This document shows positions 6,555 to 13,935 of a DNA stretch of 64,000 nt, in pieces. The position numbers and the translations under genes were made by a program. This DNA comes from Stackebrandtia albiflava (lineage in GTDB: Bacteria > Actinomycetota > Actinomycetes > Mycobacteriales > Micromonosporaceae). The DNA lies in assembly GCF_007994225.1 (NCBI RefSeq), contig NZ_VLLL01000005.1:1969142-2033141 (forward strand). The letters are read 5' to 3'. The notes below the pieces were generated by a model. It was given only the letters and a program-made list of their open reading frames with translations, was not told where the DNA came from and searched no databases. The first letter of the stretch is position 1. Each line of letters begins with the position of its first letter.

Positions 6555-7166
6555 TCATGCCACCGGTGCGCCAGTGCCGCCTCCGCCGTCGGCGTCGTCG
6601 GGGATCATCCGATGGACCAGTTCACGGATGACGTCGTCCAGCGGGTGCTCCGCGAGCACGTCCGGTGTGGTGAGCGTGTCGAGGAAGTAGCCCGACATGG
6701 TCAGGTACATGAGGACCACCGCCATACGGCCGCCGGGCATGCCGGTGCCGACATGGAACTCGGTGGTGTCGGCCAGCTCCGCCCGGAAGGTCTCGGTCAG
6801 CACCGCGGCCAGTTCCGGCCGGCGGGTGGCCTCCAACCGCAGTTCCAGCATCGCCAGGTGGCTGTCGGGGTCGGCGCGCATCCGGTCTACCAGTTGGTGG
6901 AGCAGGACGTCGAGGAGTTCGCGGCCCGGTGGGATCCGCATCGTCTCGTCCACGAGCGCGGGGTCGGGGGTGAGGCGCTCACGGGTGCGCGTGGTGACCT
7001 GTTCCAGCAGCCGCCCACGGTTGCTGAAGTAGTTGGAGGCCGTGCCGGTGGGAACGCCGGCCTCGGCGTCCACCGCCCGCAACGTCAATCCGCGCATGCC
7101 CTGTCCCGCGAGCACTCGGATCGCGGCGTCGAGCAGGGCGGCCCGGCGTTCCGGATTCTGTCGCAT
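6555..7166 (-). CDS. TetR/AcrR family transcriptional regulator
   Basis: 203 aa. The N-terminal TetR DNA-binding domain (RRAALLDAAIRVLAGQGMRG, then the helix-turn-helix AVDAEAGVPTGTASNYF) is followed by an all-alpha ligand domain. ATG 7166 has GAGGAA closely upstream (spacing 3-4 nt); ATG 7196 is in frame but lacks a ribosome site. It is divergent from the DHFR-like reductase gene, with an extended palindrome at 7210-7236 between them. It probably represses both itself (with the two downstream genes) and the reductase. The ligand is unknown. Confidence 0.9.
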   Translation of the reverse strand: MRQNPERRAALLDAAIRVLAGQGMRGLTLRAVDAEAGVPTGTASNYFSNRGRLLEQVTTRTRERLTPDPALVDETMRIPPGRELLDVLLHQLVDRMRADPDSHLAMLELRLEATRRPELAAVLTETFRAELADTTEFHVGTGMPGGRMAVVLMYLTMSGYFLDTLTTPDVLAEHPLDDVIRELVHRMIPDDADGGGGTGAPVA

Positions 7167-7209
7167 GGTTCCTCGTTTCGTGGTCGTGGCCTTCATCACT
7201 GCAATCAGA

Positions 7210-7236
7210 GTACCGCAAGTGAAGCACTTCAGATAC
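7210..7236. promoter_or_regulatory. Probable TetR operator (27-bp dyad)
   Basis: Dyad GTA-N4-AAGTG-N3-CACTT-N4-TAC, centred on 7223. It lies between the divergent TetR gene (start 7166) and the DHFR-family gene (start 7282). Length and position are typical for TetR-family autoregulatory operators. Confidence 0.65.
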
Positions 7237-7281
7237 AGTGGTCTCATCGCGTGGAAGGGCCACGCGGGAACCGGAGCCGAG

Positions 7282-7851
7282 ATGCGAAAGCTCGTATACT
7301 ACGTGGGCACCACACTGGACGGTTACATCGCCGGTCCCAACGGCGAGTACGACTTCCTGCCCATCGAACCGGATGTCACCGAAGCGCTCCTCCCGGAGCT
7401 GCCCGAGACCATCCCCACCCTGGCACGGGAACACATGGGACTGACCGACACCCCCAACCGGCGTTTCGACACCGTGCTGATGGGCAGCGCCAGCTACCAA
7501 CCCGGCCTCGACGCGGGCACCACCAGCCCGTACGACCACCTCGACCAGTACGTCTTCTCCAAATCCCGGACCGGCGAGTACCCCGGCGTCACCATGGTCC
7601 GCGACGACGCGGTCGACTTCGTGGCCGACCTCAAACGCCGCGACGGCGCCGACATCTGGCTGTGCGGCGGCGGCAAGCTCGCCGCCTCCCTGGCCGGATT
7701 GATCGACGAACTGATCATCAAGCGCTACCCGCTCGTCATCGGCGCGGGCATCCCGCTGTTCGACGGTCCGTTCCGGGTGTCGCGGTGGACGCCGTTCCAG
7801 GTGCAGGAGTTCGCCAGCGGCGCCCTCGTGACCCGCTACCGGACGACGTGA
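7282..7851 (+). CDS. Dihydrofolate reductase family protein (RibD C-terminal-like)
   Basis: 189 aa. Start MRKLVYYVGTTLDGYIAG is the classic N-terminus of the DHFR/RibD-C superfamily (YfjR/YyaP type), followed by a central FDTVLMGSASY and IWLCGGGKLAASL, the nucleotide-binding GGxxL region. These proteins are NADPH-binding reductases of unknown substrate, distinct from FolA. ATG 7282 is preceded by GGAG. It is divergent from a TetR gene with a shared operator. Its 3' end overlaps, tail to tail, the last ~116 nt of the ECF S-component ORF on the other strand. Confidence 0.9.
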   Translation: MRKLVYYVGTTLDGYIAGPNGEYDFLPIEPDVTEALLPELPETIPTLAREHMGLTDTPNRRFDTVLMGSASYQPGLDAGTTSPYDHLDQYVFSKSRTGEYPGVTMVRDDAVDFVADLKRRDGADIWLCGGGKLAASLAGLIDELIIKRYPLVIGAGIPLFDGPFRVSRWTPFQVQEFASGALVTRYRTT

Positions 7852-8671
7852 GTCCCGGTGTGTCCTCGAAGGTGACCGGCGCGTCGAACGCGGCGCGCCG
7901 GGCCGCCCGCCGCAGCACCGCCAGCACGGCGGGGCCCGCCAGCAGGATCGCCACCAGATTCGTGACCGCGCGCCCGGTGTCCCAGCCGAAGGTGGAGGTG
8001 GTCAGGGTGAAGACCGCGAACCGGTGCAGGTTCTCCACCACCGGCGCGCCCGGAACGAAGGACAACTGGGTGTCGACGCCCGCGGTGAACGGCCAGAACC
8101 ACATGTTCATCACGAAACCGAAGGCGTAGGCGGCCACCACCCCGTACCCGGCGAGCATCGCGATCTCCGCCCTGCCAGTGACCCGTTTCGGCAGCAGTCC
8201 GGCGCCCAGGCCGATCCAGGCCGAGGACACCATCTGGAACGGCAGCCACGGCCCCACCCCGGCCGTGAGCAACGCCGAGGCGAACAACGAGACCGCGCCC
8301 AGTACGAACCCGAAGCCCGCGCCGAAGACCCGGCCCGCCAACACCAACAGGAAGAACACCGTCTCGATGCCGGCGGTGCCGGCGCCCAGCGGGCGCAAGG
8401 CCGCGTTGACGGCCGCCAACACCCCCAGCATCGCCAGCGCCTTGGGATCGATGCCGCCCGAGGAGATCTCGGCCAGCACGATCGCCAACAACACCGGCAT
8501 CACCAGGACGAAGAGAAGCGGCGCGTCGGCCGAGTGCGCCACGGCCTCCGGCTCCGGGGCGACGAACAGCGGCCAGAAGAACATCACCACGCCCGCCAGT
8601 CCGGCGAGCACCAGGATCACCGAGGTACGCGGCCGGATCCCGATCACCGCGCGGACACCGACGGAGGTCAC
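7736..8671 (-). CDS. ECF transporter S component, probable cobalamin-specific subunit
   Basis: 311 aa, about eight hydrophobic segments. It ends the riboswitch-controlled operon and starts at GTG 8671, overlapping the stop of the ATPase gene (GTGA). The central part (LGAGTAGIETVFFLLVLAG, RVFGAGFGFVLGAVSLFASA, GVGPWLPFQMVSSAWIG) looks like the CbrT/ECF S family. Some extra N-terminal helices precede the six-helix core. Specificity for cobalamin is inferred from the upstream cobalamin riboswitch and the intrinsic-factor-like partners, not from binding residues. The last ~40 codons are low-complexity and antisense to the DHFR gene, so the natural C-terminus may be functionally earlier. Confidence 0.85.
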   Translation of the reverse strand: MTSVGVRAVIGIRPRTSVILVLAGLAGVVMFFWPLFVAPEPEAVAHSADAPLLFVLVMPVLLAIVLAEISSGGIDPKALAMLGVLAAVNAALRPLGAGTAGIETVFFLLVLAGRVFGAGFGFVLGAVSLFASALLTAGVGPWLPFQMVSSAWIGLGAGLLPKRVTGRAEIAMLAGYGVVAAYAFGFVMNMWFWPFTAGVDTQLSFVPGAPVVENLHRFAVFTLTTSTFGWDTGRAVTNLVAILLAGPAVLAVLRRAARRAAFDAPVTFEDTPGLTSSGSGSRGRRWRTPAPGTASTATPGTDRRTAGCPRR

Positions 8672-10284
8672 GCCACGACCTCCGAGTCGGACAGGGCCGC
8701 CTCGACCTGCGCGACGGTCAACCACTGCTGCGGAGCCATGACCTTGGCCACCTGCGGCGCGAACGCCGGGGAGGACGTGACGATCCGCGCGGTCGGCCCG
8801 TCGGCGACGAACTCGCCCTCCGCCATGACGACGACCCGGTCGGCGACCGCGGCGGCGAACTCCACGTCGTGGGTCGCGACCACCACCGCGCGCCCCTCGT
8901 CGGCCAACCGGCGCACCACCGTACGGAAACGCTCCTTGGCGTGATGGTCGAGCCCCCGGGTGGGTTCGTCCAGCAACATCACTCCGGGCGCGGCGGCGAG
9001 CTGCACCGCCAGCACCAGGGCGAGCCGCTGTCCCTCCGACAGGTCCCGGGGATGCCGCGCGTCGGGAACGCCCGGCGCCAGGGTGTCGAGCAGCGCTCGG
9101 CACGTCCCCGGCGGCACCCGCGATTCACGGTCGCACTGGCGGCATTCGGCGGCCACCGTGTCCAGGTACAGCAGGTCGGACGCGGTCTGCGGCACGAGAC
9201 CGACGAGTGCGCGCGCCCCGGCCGCGCTCACCCCGCCGGGGTCCACACCGGCGACGTCGACCACACCGGACGCGCGGGTTCCGGAGCCCTGCAACGCCCA
9301 CAACAGCGAGGACTTCCCCGAACCGTTGCGGCCCATGAGCGCCGTGACCCGACCGCCCGGCAGGTCCAGGTCGACGCCCCGGACGGCGATGTCCCGTCCA
9401 TAGGAGACCGTCAGTCCCCGTGCCCTCAACACGGGCGTCGCGTCGTTCGCCGGTCGCGGCGGTGGGCGCCGCCCGGCCAGCCGTTCCCGCAGTTCGGTCG
9501 CGCGCCTGCGCGCGTCGCGTACCGACAGGGGCAGCGGGTCCCAACCGGCCGCACGGCCCAGGCGCACCACCGGCGGCGCCACGTCGCTGTGCCGCATCAT
9601 GTCGGCGGGTTCACCGGACACCACGGTCCCGTCTCCGGGCAGGTGCAACAGGCGGTCGGCGTACTGCAGCACCCGCTCCACCCGGTGTTCGGCGACGACC
9701 ACGGTTGTCCCCAGATCGTGCACCAGCCGCAGCAGAGCGCCGAGCACGTCCTCCGCCGCGGTCGGATCCAACGCGGAGGTCGGCTCGTCGAGGACCAGGA
9801 CGGCGGGATGGTTCGTCAGCACCGCGCCGATCGCGACCCGTTGCTGCTGCCCACCGGACAACGTCCGTAGTGGACGATTCCGGAGTTCCGCGATGCCGAG
9901 CAGGTCCAGGGTCTCCTCCACCCGTTTGCGCATCACCTCGGCCGCCAGGCCGCGCTGTTCCATGCCGTACGCCAACTCCTCCTCGACCGTGTCGGTCACG
10001 AAACCCGCGAGGGGATCCTGACCCACCACGCCGACGACCTCGGCGAACTCCTGCAGTGGCAGACGCGCCGTGTCCAGCCCGCCGACCGTGACGCGGCCTC
10101 GCAACCGCCCGCCGGTGAAGCGCGGAACCAGGCCGTTGACCGCTCCCAGCAGAGTGGACTTGCCGACACCGGTGCGTCCGGTCACCAGGCACAGCTCCCC
10201 CTCCGGGATGTGCAGGTCGACGTCGCGCAGTGCGTCGGAGTCGGCTCCGTCGTATCGGAACGACACCTTCTCGAACCGGATCAC
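8668..10284 (-). CDS. ECF transporter fused double ATPase (EcfA-EcfA', CbiO-like)
   Basis: 538 aa with two ABC ATPase domains in one chain. Domain 1 has Walker A GRTGVGKST (36-44), signature LSGGQQQRVAIG, Walker B VLVLDEPTSALDP and an AEHR switch His. Domain 2 has Walker A GRNGSGKSS, Walker B VMLLDEPTRGLDH, a switch THD, and a degenerate signature LSEGQ in place of LSGGQ. It powers the ECF importer together with the T and S components. GTG 10284 overlaps the EcfT stop codon (GTGA), and its own stop overlaps the S-component start, so the genes are translationally coupled. The operon is controlled by the cobalamin riboswitch at 13767-13935. Confidence 0.93.
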   Translation of the reverse strand: MIRFEKVSFRYDGADSDALRDVDLHIPEGELCLVTGRTGVGKSTLLGAVNGLVPRFTGGRLRGRVTVGGLDTARLPLQEFAEVVGVVGQDPLAGFVTDTVEEELAYGMEQRGLAAEVMRKRVEETLDLLGIAELRNRPLRTLSGGQQQRVAIGAVLTNHPAVLVLDEPTSALDPTAAEDVLGALLRLVHDLGTTVVVAEHRVERVLQYADRLLHLPGDGTVVSGEPADMMRHSDVAPPVVRLGRAAGWDPLPLSVRDARRRATELRERLAGRRPPPRPANDATPVLRARGLTVSYGRDIAVRGVDLDLPGGRVTALMGRNGSGKSSLLWALQGSGTRASGVVDVAGVDPGGVSAAGARALVGLVPQTASDLLYLDTVAAECRQCDRESRVPPGTCRALLDTLAPGVPDARHPRDLSEGQRLALVLAVQLAAAPGVMLLDEPTRGLDHHAKERFRTVVRRLADEGRAVVVATHDVEFAAAVADRVVVMAEGEFVADGPTARIVTSSPAFAPQVAKVMAPQQWLTVAQVEAALSDSEVVA

Positions 10285-11441
10285 GCGACGGACTCCCTCG
10301 GTGCGGTGGTGGCCGGTCGCGCGGCGGCCGCCGGCGCGACGTCGATGGTCGTGACCGGCGGAGGCGCCAGCCAGGCGGGCAGCACGCCCGACAGGATCGC
10401 CACCACCGGCAGCACGGTGACCTCCGGCCAGGTCAGCGGGCTCAACGTCGGATACAGGTCGGCGGGGTCCACCCGCGTGGAGAGGAACATGAGCCCTCCG
10501 GTGGCGAGTCCACTGGCGACGACGGCGAACTCGGCCGCCCGCCATCGATCCGGGCGGTATCGGCTACGCCCGACCCGGCGGCCCCCCAGCAGGAGGCCCA
10601 CGACCGCCACGGCCAGGCCGCCCACCAACATCGGGAAGCCCAGATAGCGGGGTGTCGAACCGTCCATGACCCCGTACATGCCCGCGCAGACTCCCAACAT
10701 GCCGAGGATCACCAGTCCGCCGGTCAGCAACCGGGCCCGCGCCGGAAGCGGGCCGGTGCGGCCGTACCCCCGCGAGGCCATCGCGGCCGCCAGCGCGAGT
10801 GAGCGGTTGAGGGCGTCCTCCAAGACCGGGATGAGGATGCCCCGCAGCGCCCGCAGTCCGCGTTGCCGCCCCGCGCGCAGCCGGCGCGCGCGCCGCACCC
10901 GCAACACGCTCTCGACCAGTTGCGGCGCGACACTCAACGCCACCACGACGGCCGTCCCCACCTCGTAGAGCGCACCCGGGAGCGCCTTGAGCAGCCGTTT
11001 CGGGTTCGCCAGGGCGTTCGCGGCCCCCACACACACCAACATGGTGGCCAGCCGGAGACCGTCGTAGAACCCGCCGAGCAGTTGCTCGACCGCGACCGGA
11101 CCGAACAGTCGGATACCGGCCGCCCACTCCGGCAGCGGGATCTGCGGGAGCGTGAACAGGATGACGTCGCCCTGTCCCCCGCCGAAGACGATGCGGAACA
11201 CGACGCGCATCGCGATGATCACGCCGCCCACGATCAGGTACATCCGGAAGGCCAGCGCCCAGGGAGCGTCACCGCGCCGCCGGGCCACCACGAACCCGCA
11301 CACCGCCAGGATCAGCAGCAGCAACAGCGGATTGGTGGTGCGGCCGGCGGCTGTCGCCAGTCCGATCGCCCACAGCCACCACGCGCCGGGGTGAAGGGCA
11401 CGCGGCAGCCGAGTGTGTCGAAGGCCGGTCGGCGGCCGCAT
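10281..11441 (-). CDS. ECF transporter T component (CbiQ/EcfT family)
   Basis: 386 aa membrane scaffold linking the ATPases to the S component. Several N-terminal helices precede a cytoplasmic coupling region with AMASRGYGRTG, the A-x-x-R-G motif that docks into the ATPase. Further helices follow, more than the usual five or six. ATG 11441 is chosen because the hydrophobic domain follows it; a TTG at 11492 is possible. Its first ~130 nt overlap, in another frame, the 3' end of the DUF4430 gene. The stop overlaps the ATPase GTG. Confidence 0.9.
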   Translation of the reverse strand: MRPPTGLRHTRLPRALHPGAWWLWAIGLATAAGRTTNPLLLLLILAVCGFVVARRRGDAPWALAFRMYLIVGGVIIAMRVVFRIVFGGGQGDVILFTLPQIPLPEWAAGIRLFGPVAVEQLLGGFYDGLRLATMLVCVGAANALANPKRLLKALPGALYEVGTAVVVALSVAPQLVESVLRVRRARRLRAGRQRGLRALRGILIPVLEDALNRSLALAAAMASRGYGRTGPLPARARLLTGGLVILGMLGVCAGMYGVMDGSTPRYLGFPMLVGGLAVAVVGLLLGGRRVGRSRYRPDRWRAAEFAVVASGLATGGLMFLSTRVDPADLYPTLSPLTWPEVTVLPVVAILSGVLPAWLAPPPVTTIDVAPAAAARPATTAPRESVA

Positions 11442-12334
11442 AAGGCCGCGTCGGCCCTCTGCCGCGACCGGCGGCGCCAGCCGACCACGCAACTGCCGGC
11501 GATCAGGGCGGCGATACCGCCCAGGGCGACCAGAGTGGACGTGGGGACACCGGACGCACCCGACTCCGCCGAGGTGTTGCGCATGTCGTCGTCGCCGCCC
11601 GTCCAGCCGGGCGCCTCGGTGGGAGACACCTCGGTGCCGGGCAGCGGCGCGTCCGACGGCGGGTCGTCGGCGGTGGTGGTCTCCTCCTCCGTCGGCGTGT
11701 CCTCGCCGGAGCCCGCGGAATCTCCGTCGCCGTGGTCCTCGGTGCCGTCCCCGGCGGGGCCGCCCGTGGTGCCCGCGTCGTCACCGGAATCCGGTGCGGC
11801 GGGACGGACCGGGTCGATCCGAGGCGGCGGGTTCGTCGTCTCGTTCTTGTCCTTGGAGAACGACCAGCCCTCGAAGCTGCCCGGCGGCGGCTTCCGGTTC
11901 GTCACGCCCCATCGGCTGTACGACCAGTCGCCACCGTCGGGAGAGTGCCAGTACGCCCAGTACGCGGTGGCGGGCGGGGTGTCGATACAGGACTCCTCGG
12001 CGGGTCCCGGCTTACCCTCGATGCGACAGATGAAGGCCTCACCCCAGCGGTTGGTGCCGGTGATCTGGATGCCCGCGTTCTTCAGCGCCGTCAGACCGGT
12101 CGCCTGGTCGCCCGGGGCGCAGCGGATGACGACGTCACCCCCGAGCTCCTGGAAGTCGACGACGACGGTCACCCCGTTCGCGTCGGGGCAGTAGCCGGGG
12201 GTTCCCCGGCCGTGATCGATGGCGTACGCGGCCGACGACGTCACCGGGCCGACGGCCACCAGCAGGCCGAACACGAGGACGAGTGCGGCACCGGCCGCGC
12301 GCGGAATGCGACCGAGTCGGCGTGAAGCGATCAT
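11312..12334 (-). CDS. Membrane-anchored DUF4430 protein (intrinsic-factor/transcobalamin beta-domain-like)
   Basis: 340 aa. A signal peptide (residues ~1-38) is followed by a DUF4430-type domain (about 50-150) with VTVVVDFQELGGDVVIRC, GLTALKNAGIQI, a Cys pair around GEAFICRIEG/EESCIDTPP, and AYWAYWHSPDGGDWSYS, the aromatic strand typical of this domain. A long acidic Pro/Thr/Ser/Asp stalk precedes a TM helix (~264-286) and a basic stop-transfer RRRSRQR. In animal B12 carriers this domain caps the vitamin beneath an alpha/alpha toroid. The ATG at 12334 overlaps the toroid gene's stop (ATGA). The cytoplasmic tail (54 residues, ending in four Cys) is encoded over the start of the EcfT gene. Confidence 0.88.
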   Translation of the reverse strand: MIASRRLGRIPRAAGAALVLVFGLLVAVGPVTSSAAYAIDHGRGTPGYCPDANGVTVVVDFQELGGDVVIRCAPGDQATGLTALKNAGIQITGTNRWGEAFICRIEGKPGPAEESCIDTPPATAYWAYWHSPDGGDWSYSRWGVTNRKPPPGSFEGWSFSKDKNETTNPPPRIDPVRPAAPDSGDDAGTTGGPAGDGTEDHGDGDSAGSGEDTPTEEETTTADDPPSDAPLPGTEVSPTEAPGWTGGDDDMRNTSAESGASGVPTSTLVALGGIAALIAGSCVVGWRRRSRQRADAALCGRRPAFDTLGCRVPFTPARGGCGRSDWRQPPAAPPIRCCCC

Positions 12335-13671
12335 CGGGTGGTCTCCTCACGACGGGTGATGTACAGGGTGACGACGCCCAGGACCAGCAGCGCCGCCCCG
12401 GTGCCGAAGACCGTCGCCACGGGGGAGCCCGTGACGGGCAGGGTGCCGCGTGGTGGCCCGGCCGCAGAGTCCTTCGGCGGGCCGGAGAGGTCGCCCGGCG
12501 GATCGCCGTCGCCCGGGTCGGTGCCGGGTCCGGGGTCCACGGTTCCGATGTCGCCCAACGAGACCCGGCTCAGCGCGAGCATCGCCTGCGCCGTCGCGCG
12601 CCGCCACTGGTCGCGCTGGAACACCGGGATGCCCTCTGCCCGCGCGGCGGCGAGCGAGTCGCCGTTGTAGGCGATGGTGCCGGCCTCCGCCGAGGCGGCC
12701 CCGGCGTCGTCGGCGGTGATCTGGTGCGCCGCCACCCATGCCGCGGCCTCGGCGGCCGCCTCGTCGTGTCCGGTGGCGGCGAGGGCCTGACCCGCCAGGC
12801 CGGTGCTGTTGGTGTTGGGTGCGGCCGTCGGACCCGAACCACCGAACGAACCGTCGTCGTGCTGGATGCCGAGCAACCACTCGGCGCCGAGGGCCGCACC
12901 TTCGGCGGCGCCGGCGGAGGAGTCGTGCGCGGCGGCCGACAGCAGCGCCTGAACGGCCATTGCGGTGGAGTCGGGGTCGAGGACGGCCGAGCCGCCCTGC
13001 GAGTCACAGTCGCCACCGACGGTGCCGCCCCCGAACGCGTACGGGTAGAGGCGGAACCCGCCGGAGGAGCACTGCTGGTCGAGCAGGAAGTCGACGGCCT
13101 CCTGCGGAACCCCGCCACTGCGCGCGAGTCCCGCCACCGCCAGCGACTGGGCGAAGGTGTTGCTGCCGTCGACCGAGGGCGCGAACACCTCGTCCTTGAC
13201 CCGGCCGTGTTCCGGGCCCAGTTCCGGCCCGGCGATCAGGTCGAGGGTCTCCCGGCGCAGGTCGTACTCTCCGAACGCCTCGGGGTCGGAACCGGTGATG
13301 ACGGCGGCGTACAGCAGTTTCGCGGTGGCGCCGGCGATCCGCTGCCCCGGTTCGCTCCAGGCGTCGAGGCTGTTGTAGTCGCGCACGTGGACCTTCAACG
13401 TCTCGGTGATCAGGTCGATCGTGCGCTGGTCTCCCCCGGCGGCCTCCAGGCCGATGAGGGCGTCCACGGTGAGGCCCCAGTCCGGGGTGCCGATCATTCC
13501 GGGGACTCCACCGGTGGTGGGGTCGACCTCGCCGGCCAGCCAGGCGGCGGCGGACGCGGCCTCGGCGTCGAGGGGTTCGGCGTGGGCGGGGGCGGCGAAG
13601 GTCGCCGCGACGGCGGCGGCCACGACGGCGAGGGCCGCCGTCCTCCGGGCGAGGAGTGGGGCACGGACCAT
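12331..13671 (-). CDS. Surface-anchored alpha/alpha-toroid protein (prenyltransferase/squalene oxidase-like repeats, LPXTG type)
   Basis: 446 aa. A signal peptide (MVRAPLLARRTAALAV, cleaved near AHA-EP) is followed by repeated helical-hairpin motifs of the alpha6/alpha6 toroid: PGMIGTPDWGLTVDALIGLE, SNTFAQSLAVAGLARSGG, DSTAMAVQALLSAA and WLLGIQHDDGSFGGSG. A Pro/Gly/Asp linker leads to a sorting signal at residue 411: LPVTG, a hydrophobic helix and a basic tail RREETTR. This predicts sortase attachment to peptidoglycan. The fold matches the alpha-domain of intrinsic factor/transcobalamin rather than a terpene enzyme, because the protein is exported and sits in a B12-riboswitch operon. ATG 13671 has AAAGGA 6 nt upstream. 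It is the first gene of the operon. Confidence 0.9.
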   Translation of the reverse strand: MVRAPLLARRTAALAVVAAAVAATFAAPAHAEPLDAEAASAAAWLAGEVDPTTGGVPGMIGTPDWGLTVDALIGLEAAGGDQRTIDLITETLKVHVRDYNSLDAWSEPGQRIAGATAKLLYAAVITGSDPEAFGEYDLRRETLDLIAGPELGPEHGRVKDEVFAPSVDGSNTFAQSLAVAGLARSGGVPQEAVDFLLDQQCSSGGFRLYPYAFGGGTVGGDCDSQGGSAVLDPDSTAMAVQALLSAAAHDSSAGAAEGAALGAEWLLGIQHDDGSFGGSGPTAAPNTNSTGLAGQALAATGHDEAAAEAAAWVAAHQITADDAGAASAEAGTIAYNGDSLAAARAEGIPVFQRDQWRRATAQAMLALSRVSLGDIGTVDPGPGTDPGDGDPPGDLSGPPKDSAAGPPRGTLPVTGSPVATVFGTGAALLVLGVVTLYITRREETTR

Positions 13672-13733
13672 GGGGGTCCTTTCGGGGCGAGCGCGCGGCG
13701 CCGACCCCTGGCGAACACCGAAGAATCGAAAAG

Positions 13734-13766
13734 CCCCAATGCATTCACGTGGTGAATGCGTCGGGG
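13734..13766 (-). terminator. Riboswitch expression-platform terminator
   Basis: On the minus strand: CCCC, GAC, GCATTCAC, loop CAC, GTGAATGC, ATT, GGGG, followed by CTTTTC. This is an intrinsic-terminator-like hairpin between the cobalamin riboswitch and the toroid gene, 63 nt before its ATG. It is one of the few hairpins in the window with a U-run. Confidence 0.75.
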
Positions 13767-13935
13767 CCGGCCGGTTCGGACGTTCGCCGGGCTCCGCGCT
13801 GCAGACCATGACAGTGGAAGCGGTCACGTCGCACGTCAGGCATTCCGGCTCGCGGCTCACGCCACTCACGGTTGCAGGTCAGCGCCGGATTCCCACCGGC
13901 TTCCCCTGTGCGTGCGATGATTCGGTTGTGAGGGT
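13767..13935 (-). ncRNA. Cobalamin (B12) riboswitch
   Basis: The minus strand contains the hallmark B12-element core GGGGAAGCCGGTGgGAATCC, then CGGCGCTGACCTGCAACCGTGA, followed by the GAGCCGGAATGCCTGACGTGC region (variant of the GCCAGGAnACCTGCC box). A terminator hairpin ends it. It precedes the toroid/DUF4430/ECF operon, so adenosylcobalamin is expected to switch the whole operon off. Ends are approximate. Confidence 0.92.

Follow-up and report, generated by a model that had tools for sequence, protein, structure and literature searches.

A cobalamin riboswitch and an importer operon

Behind a cobalamin (vitamin B12) riboswitch in Stackebrandtia albiflava lies a set of five genes, encoded on the minus strand of a 64,000-nucleotide stretch of contig NZ_VLLL01000005.1 (the window, whose positions are used below). 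A sequence-only reading of this DNA had proposed that two surface proteins, resembling the two halves of animal intrinsic factor, capture B12 here and pass it to an energy-coupling factor (ECF) importer. All of the parts it named are present, among them the toroid protein with LPVTG, EcfT, the fused EcfA-EcfA and the S component, and they are arranged as follows:

13930-7736, minus strand: the whole set, in the order riboswitch, toroid protein, beta-domain protein, EcfT, fused EcfA-EcfA, S component
13930-13817, minus strand: cobalamin riboswitch aptamer, RF00174, 32.5 bits against a cut-off of 31.5
13766-13734, minus strand: predicted hairpin between aptamer and first gene, a possible expression-platform terminator (fold prediction)
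13671-12331, minus strand: toroid protein (446 amino acids, aa), with signal peptide, alpha/alpha toroid, LPVTG, transmembrane (TM) segment and Arg-rich tail
12334-11312, minus strand: beta-domain protein (340 aa), SCO2322-like / divergent DUF4430 by fold model and profile comparison
11441-10281, minus strand: EcfT, transmembrane coupling protein (386 aa), Pfam CbiQ (PF02361), 27.9 bits against a cut-off of 25
10284-8668, minus strand: fused EcfA-EcfA ATPases (538 aa), ABC_tran at 154.1 bits in two stretches
8671-7736, minus strand: S component (311 aa), CbrT-like in a phylum-wide profile

Reading the coordinates bore out the gene junctions described earlier: toroid and beta genes join at ATGA, EcfT and EcfA at GTGA, and EcfA and S again at GTGA, while the beta gene and EcfT overlap by 130 nucleotides (11441-11312), placing about 45 of the last beta-protein codons inside EcfT. 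For comparison, 101 genomes (its own included) were searched with the toroid protein, and 20 loci of 19 relatives (L038-L057; L and G handles denote loci and genomes) were read. In the four relatives compared at this junction (L038, the closest, and L039, L042 and L056) the beta frame ends at the EcfT junction, so the overlap and the extra beta tail look like a local stop loss, and we rejected the overlap as a designed or meaningful feature.

A cobalamin-class riboswitch was found at all 20 relatives' loci, 16 over the Rfam cut-off and four more with a model, R1, built from 14 sequences (R1 matches: L038, E 8.1e-22; L052, 4.4e-13; L055, 2.9e-26; L057, 1.2e-26). The window's sequence is included in R1, so its own R1 match is by construction. 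RNAalifold, given 14 sequences, returned 16 pairs, seven of them changed on both sides. Despite the 1-bit margin of the aptamer in the window, a chance riboswitch was rejected on this covariation and the 20/20 loci; together with a gene order that recurs in relatives, the covariation indicates that the operon is more than chance. Control by B12, as proposed earlier, is thus supported by the riboswitch class and the relatives' loci. The terminator that had been claimed along with the riboswitch fared less well. The strong predicted hairpin at 13766-13734 is followed by T-rich CTTTTCGATT, and it is not among the six terminator-like sites of a consensus scan, which leaves it a plausible but weak candidate for an intrinsic terminator.

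The importer is recognizable, though several of its family scores fall short. The S component reaches 23.8 bits against a cut-off of 26.7 for PF07155, the fused EcfA-EcfA reaches 261.5 bits against 315 for ECF_ATPase_1, and the equivalog ECF_ATPase models also stay below their cut-offs. A phylum-wide S profile (A4; 15 S sequences, six from other classes) finds 6fnp_A in the Protein Data Bank (PDB) at E 5.1e-20 and then 4hzu_S at 8.7e-6, with nothing else up to E 1. The entry 6FNP is the structure of ECF-CbrT (PMC5997447; cited papers stand here and below for the portions available to us), and its chain A is probably CbrT, judging from its length and what the profile matched. With EcfT and EcfA present and the CbrT entry found by the phylum-wide profile, the assignment as an ECF importer stands. 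The 3' end of the S component overlaps tail to tail with a plus-strand open reading frame (ORF) at 7033-7851, the shared part being 7736-7851; read by eye, this ORF is RibD/DHFR-like.

The two surface proteins

The beta-domain protein has its domain at 12205-11822, a signal-type N terminus, a Pro/Thr/Asp-rich stalk and a TM segment, with hydrophobic segments close to both ends. An AlphaFold model of the domain, made from a 34-sequence alignment, has a mean pLDDT (predicted local distance difference test) of 83.4. When this model was compared with the PDB by Foldseek, ranks 1-7 were all transcobalamin (5no0, 7qbe, 7qbg, 4zrp, 5np4, 8ixu and 8ixt; E 7.8e-3 to 5.6e-2, probability 0.97-1.00), and the probability dropped to 0.25 at rank 8. 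The fold comparison with transcobalamin suggested earlier therefore gave a positive answer for this half. Searched by sequence only, the beta domain matched nothing in the PDB.

The sequence-only reading had called this gene a membrane-anchored DUF4430 protein. The beta-type fold implied by that name is borne out by the seven transcobalamin matches; as a plain Pfam call "DUF4430" was rejected, since PF14478 is silent on the window protein, and it matches one of 34 relatives' beta domains, at E 0.0022. In InterPro, DUF4430 is named after the C-terminal part of transcobalamin. The assignment made here comes from the fold and from profile-profile comparison rather than from Pfam: against 30 true DUF4430 domains a first beta alignment gave P 0.0027 (probability 11%), and a wider one, compared by hhalign, P 2.9e-4 (probability 40.7%, score 26.3), where 50 column shuffles scored at most 16.5 and four unrelated comparisons gave P 0.38-0.63. 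NCBIfam SCO2322_fam matches the window protein at E 1.7e-4 and 22 bits, its curated cut-off being 85.

The toroid protein begins with a hydrophobic N terminus and carries LPVTG at 12441-12427, followed by a TM segment and the Arg-rich tail. Two sortases lie over cut-off in the genome, and all features of an LPXTG wall anchor (LPXTG, TM segment, basic tail, sortase in the genome) are thus found; PF00746 matches nine of 20 toroid relatives and leaves the window protein unmatched. The predicted structure (pLDDT 86.9) is clearly an alpha/alpha toroid. Kinship with intrinsic factor in particular, the other part of what had been claimed for this protein, is not settled: human intrinsic factor appears at rank 39 (E 6.9e-4) among generic toroids in the fold search, and the family Cobalamin_bind (PF01122) leaves the window toroid unmatched, while six of 20 members match at E up to 1, the best at 0.062. 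No B12 carrier is among the 47 PDB matches of the toroid sequence profile, and the window toroid alone found no match in a sequence search of the PDB. NCBIfam SCO2321_fam matches it at E 1.7e-20 and 73.3 bits, against a cut-off of 300. That the toroid serves as the alpha half of a carrier is something we infer from the company its gene keeps.

A second riboswitch-led LPVTG toroid gene was seen elsewhere in the same genome (L035:5105-6516; C1:829104 on). The window's beta protein, used as a query against this genome, brought up no further beta gene.

Recurrence in relatives and across the phylum

The toroid search gave matches in 34 of 101 genomes. These were not accepted as 34 toroids, as five (G015, G038, G044, G051 and G060) match the C-terminal anchor end only; 29 are left after their removal, one of which (G097) spans 89 residues. 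All five genes stand together at 17 of the 20 relatives' loci. Within the stretch read, L054 and L055 have toroid and beta genes only, and L057 a toroid gene only. In L051 (5722-7613) the halves of the beta domain lie in different frames, from a frameshift or a sequencing error.

Genome contigs were also scanned with a profile of the beta-domain alignment, and the best 76 loci were kept, which, having been selected by the beta domain, are not an independent sample. All five genes occur in 63 of these, and the beta gene adjoins EcfT in 70; the remainder includes truncated contigs. At least one adjacent toroid-beta pair is found in 50 of the 76, and two or more such pairs in 22.

Starting from the importer instead, the S component was found in 159 of 296 class genomes, and 20 loci were hand-picked from these 159 for spread and size of contig. 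An EcfT match is present in 19 of the 20 and a beta-type gene in 18 (that of L241 weak, E 2e-5); none was found in L237 and L238. Beta-type gene, EcfT and S component share the stretch in 17. Ten of the S-selected loci were searched with R1: nine have a riboswitch match at E 1.7e-15 or lower, and the match in L225 is partial (E 2.5e-6).

Among the 18 beta-type genes of these loci, the order of the two domain halves differs. Six have the window's half order, and in L241 neither half was recognized. In the other 11 (including L226, L232 and L239) the half-profile recognized the half bearing YWSYW alone, standing first. The stretch that follows it in these 11 aligns with the first half of the window's clade (probability 86.2%, P 4.9e-6, score 35.1), whereas none of 50 column shuffles exceeded 17.9 and the other half gave P 0.91. 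Motifs fall in register: a hydrophobic strand ending VVDF-like, a Cys, a G..L/V..L helix, Cys-x-I-x-x-x-P and a further Cys. On these profile alignments, 11 of 18 beta domains appear to be circularly permuted within one operon family.

The arrangement spans the phylum Actinomycetota. PF14478 lies above cut-off in 51 of 296 phylum genomes, 49 of them outside the class, so that the scope given earlier, actinomycetes, was too narrow: true DUF4430 domains are encoded in other classes as well. Twenty DUF4430 loci were fetched, 19 from outside the class, and an RNA scan covered 17 of the 20. Of the 19, 16 have a same-strand ECF ATPase beside the gene, 14 an S-component match and 10 a toroid by iterated profile; 13 of the 17 scanned have a cobalamin-class riboswitch, that of L191 on the strand opposite the operon. 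These recurring ECF, S and riboswitch neighbours indicate that the beta gene of the window shares its operon slot with true DUF4430 genes.

In four DUF4430 loci mapped in full and having this gene order (L176, L177, L180 and L185), an ORF of 848-961 aa lies between riboswitch and DUF4430 gene; that of L180, the one scanned, is a PQQ_2-like, PQQ-type propeller protein. Surface ORFs of very large size, between 847 and 1919 aa, also precede the DUF4430 genes of L184 (4836-9449), L172, L179 and L187. The giant L184 protein, the one scanned, has two DUF4430 stretches, one aBig_2 and one propeller-type match, and no toroid domain was called in it.

Proposed surface capture of cobalamin and its rivals

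Taken together, we favour, at a probability of about 0.6, a reading in which a split transcobalamin-like surface binder would feed an ECF-CbrT-type importer. Low cellular cobalamin would permit expression of the operon through the riboswitch, as its class suggests; the toroid protein would be sorted to the wall via LPVTG, and the transcobalamin-beta-like protein would be held at the membrane on its long stalk. The two could then clamp a corrinoid between them and hand it over to the S component, although binding, assembly and delivery are conjectural. A split carrier is physically workable, because human TC-alpha and TC-beta (the two parts of transcobalamin), made separately, co-elute only with cyanocobalamin (PMC5599065), and it is on this ground that we propose the clamp and the hand-over. 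A broader version is more tentative, and we rate it somewhat below even odds: that this is a class of ECF importers across Actinomycetota using, contrary to the usual picture, an extracellular two-protein binder, in which wall toroid and membrane transcobalamin-beta-like domain close on the corrinoid before it goes to a CbrT-like S component, with the beta domain permuted and the animal carriers a fused relative of the split pair.

Several points weigh against the favoured reading. ECF transporters are described as needing no separate binding protein, since the S component by itself binds the substrate, so that strictly speaking the importer could do without a surface binder. The kinship with CbrT vanishes with a class-only S profile (14 sequences), which finds nothing in the PDB; the window S component alone has no PDB match either, and the A4 match to the CbrT entry may depend on the deep members of that profile. 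For the beta domain, the Foldseek E-values are modest, none reaching 0.001, and PF14478 has no match to the window protein at E up to 10. The nearest fold matches of the toroid are squalene-hopene cyclases and other toroids, and its sequence profile finds cyclases and complement-type domains in the PDB.

A further difficulty is that a toroid gene lies within the stretch at only 11 of the 20 S-selected loci, compared with 18 for the beta-type gene. Among the nine genomes without a toroid at the locus, G567 encodes a toroid body elsewhere and eight have none, three showing anchor-end matches only and five nothing, though a divergent toroid could escape detection by the toroid profile (A2). This fits an explanation in which the beta protein alone is a corrinoid-binding accessory and the toroid, which matches generic toroid families, has some other wall role (a scaffold, or contact with glycan or protein) and is merely co-regulated. 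We regard that as unlikely, given that toroid and beta genes have been duplicated as pairs, with two or more adjacent pairs at 22 of the 76 beta-selected loci, and that L054 and L055 keep both without ECF genes in the stretch read. The duplications favour a pair; the toroid-less loci make the beta protein core and the toroid optional. In our view, the beta-domain protein is the central accessory, and the toroid, though often present, can be dispensed with. The earlier interpretation is thus partly supported; its proposal that two halves assemble as a pair holds insofar as the toroid adjoins the beta gene in most relatives read, while the need for both halves is unsettled, with nine of 20 loci lacking a toroid.

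In favour of the main reading, the host seems to need B12: MetH and NrdJ are present in the genome, CobN is absent and CobQ falls below its cut-off. A CobB-like gene over cut-off stands alone among the ORFs listed around it. Four cobalamin riboswitches pass in the genome, at this operon, L035, L036 and L037, the last leading a BtuFCD-like importer (L037:5620-8581) whose NCBIfam matches are below the equivalog cut-offs. This alternative importer and the lone CobB-like gene also count against the favoured reading, as they leave the dependence of the host on B12 unsettled. They agree as well with a quite improbable alternative, in which the surface proteins select, instead of cobalamin itself, one of its corrinoid precursors or breakdown products (cobinamide, cobyrinate) or some other compound related to B12, and the importer carries that: with a BtuFCD-type importer as well, the genome could divide the labour between the two, and CbrT also transports cobinamide (PMC5997447). 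Riboswitch control, however, does not separate precursors from cobalamin, so that cobalamin itself may be the substrate, and TC-beta binds cobinamide and cobalamin alike (PMC5599065). It is very improbable that the surface proteins instead store or hoard B12 in competition for a shared nutrient, uncoupled from the ECF transporter, as riboswitch-led loci with a toroid only or a pair only (L035, in a genome with no second beta gene, L054, L055 and L057) might suggest, for the beta gene stands directly before EcfT in 70 of the best 76 beta-selected loci and shares the stretch with EcfT and S at 17 of the 20 loci picked by the S component.

Two side observations concern the same genome. At L036 (7606-8398) the riboswitch (51.2 bits) immediately precedes, or overlaps, the start of an ORF that looks thioesterase-like by eye; the next ORF, judged in the same way, is LysE-like. 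NrdJ (G000:C1:731175-734195) appears as two pieces (profile positions 21-282 and 280-606) within one 1370-aa frame; the pieces are separated by about 395 codons, in what looks like an intein or similar insertion.

The split binder of the favoured reading resembles the animal carriers transcobalamin, intrinsic factor and haptocorrin in having a toroid half and a small beta half. It differs in that the window has two genes, two anchors, an importer next door and no receptor; moreover, the window toroid is not specifically kin to the animal alpha domain, and many bacterial beta domains are apparently permuted. ECF-CbrT of Lactobacillus delbrueckii (PMC5997447; PDB 6FNP) shares an ECF module with, by the phylum-wide profile, a CbrT-like S component. 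The window's module, in contrast, is dedicated and operon-encoded, with fused ATPases and two surface proteins, and no extracellular binding protein is described for ECF-CbrT in the available portion of PMC5997447. In acI freshwater actinobacteria, a cobalamin-riboswitch-led ECF module has been proposed as a B12 transporter; it is alike in its riboswitch and ECF genes, and neither surface protein is mentioned in the available portion of that source (PMC5301498). The same module, with an AdoCbl-II riboswitch, is present in the 1.5-Mb genome of L239. BtuFCD also joins an extracellular binder to an ATP-driven importer, but its binder fold and transporter class are unrelated to those of the window. 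The window pair matches NCBIfam SCO2321_fam and SCO2322_fam far below the curated cut-offs, and these names assign no function.

In the open-access library searched, outside of which most subscription journals lie, no paper linked these surface proteins to B12 uptake, and nothing pertinent turned up on the SCO2321/SCO2322 genes. If the favoured reading is true, it would provide a testable route by which Gram-positive bacteria, in a large part of Actinomycetota, capture scarce extracellular B12, and it would assign a function to the bacterial DUF4430 domains and to proteins of the SCO2321/SCO2322 type. The surface pair would then be a bacterial counterpart of the animal B12 carriers, and its beta half would offer a natural circular permutation in a vitamin-binding domain.

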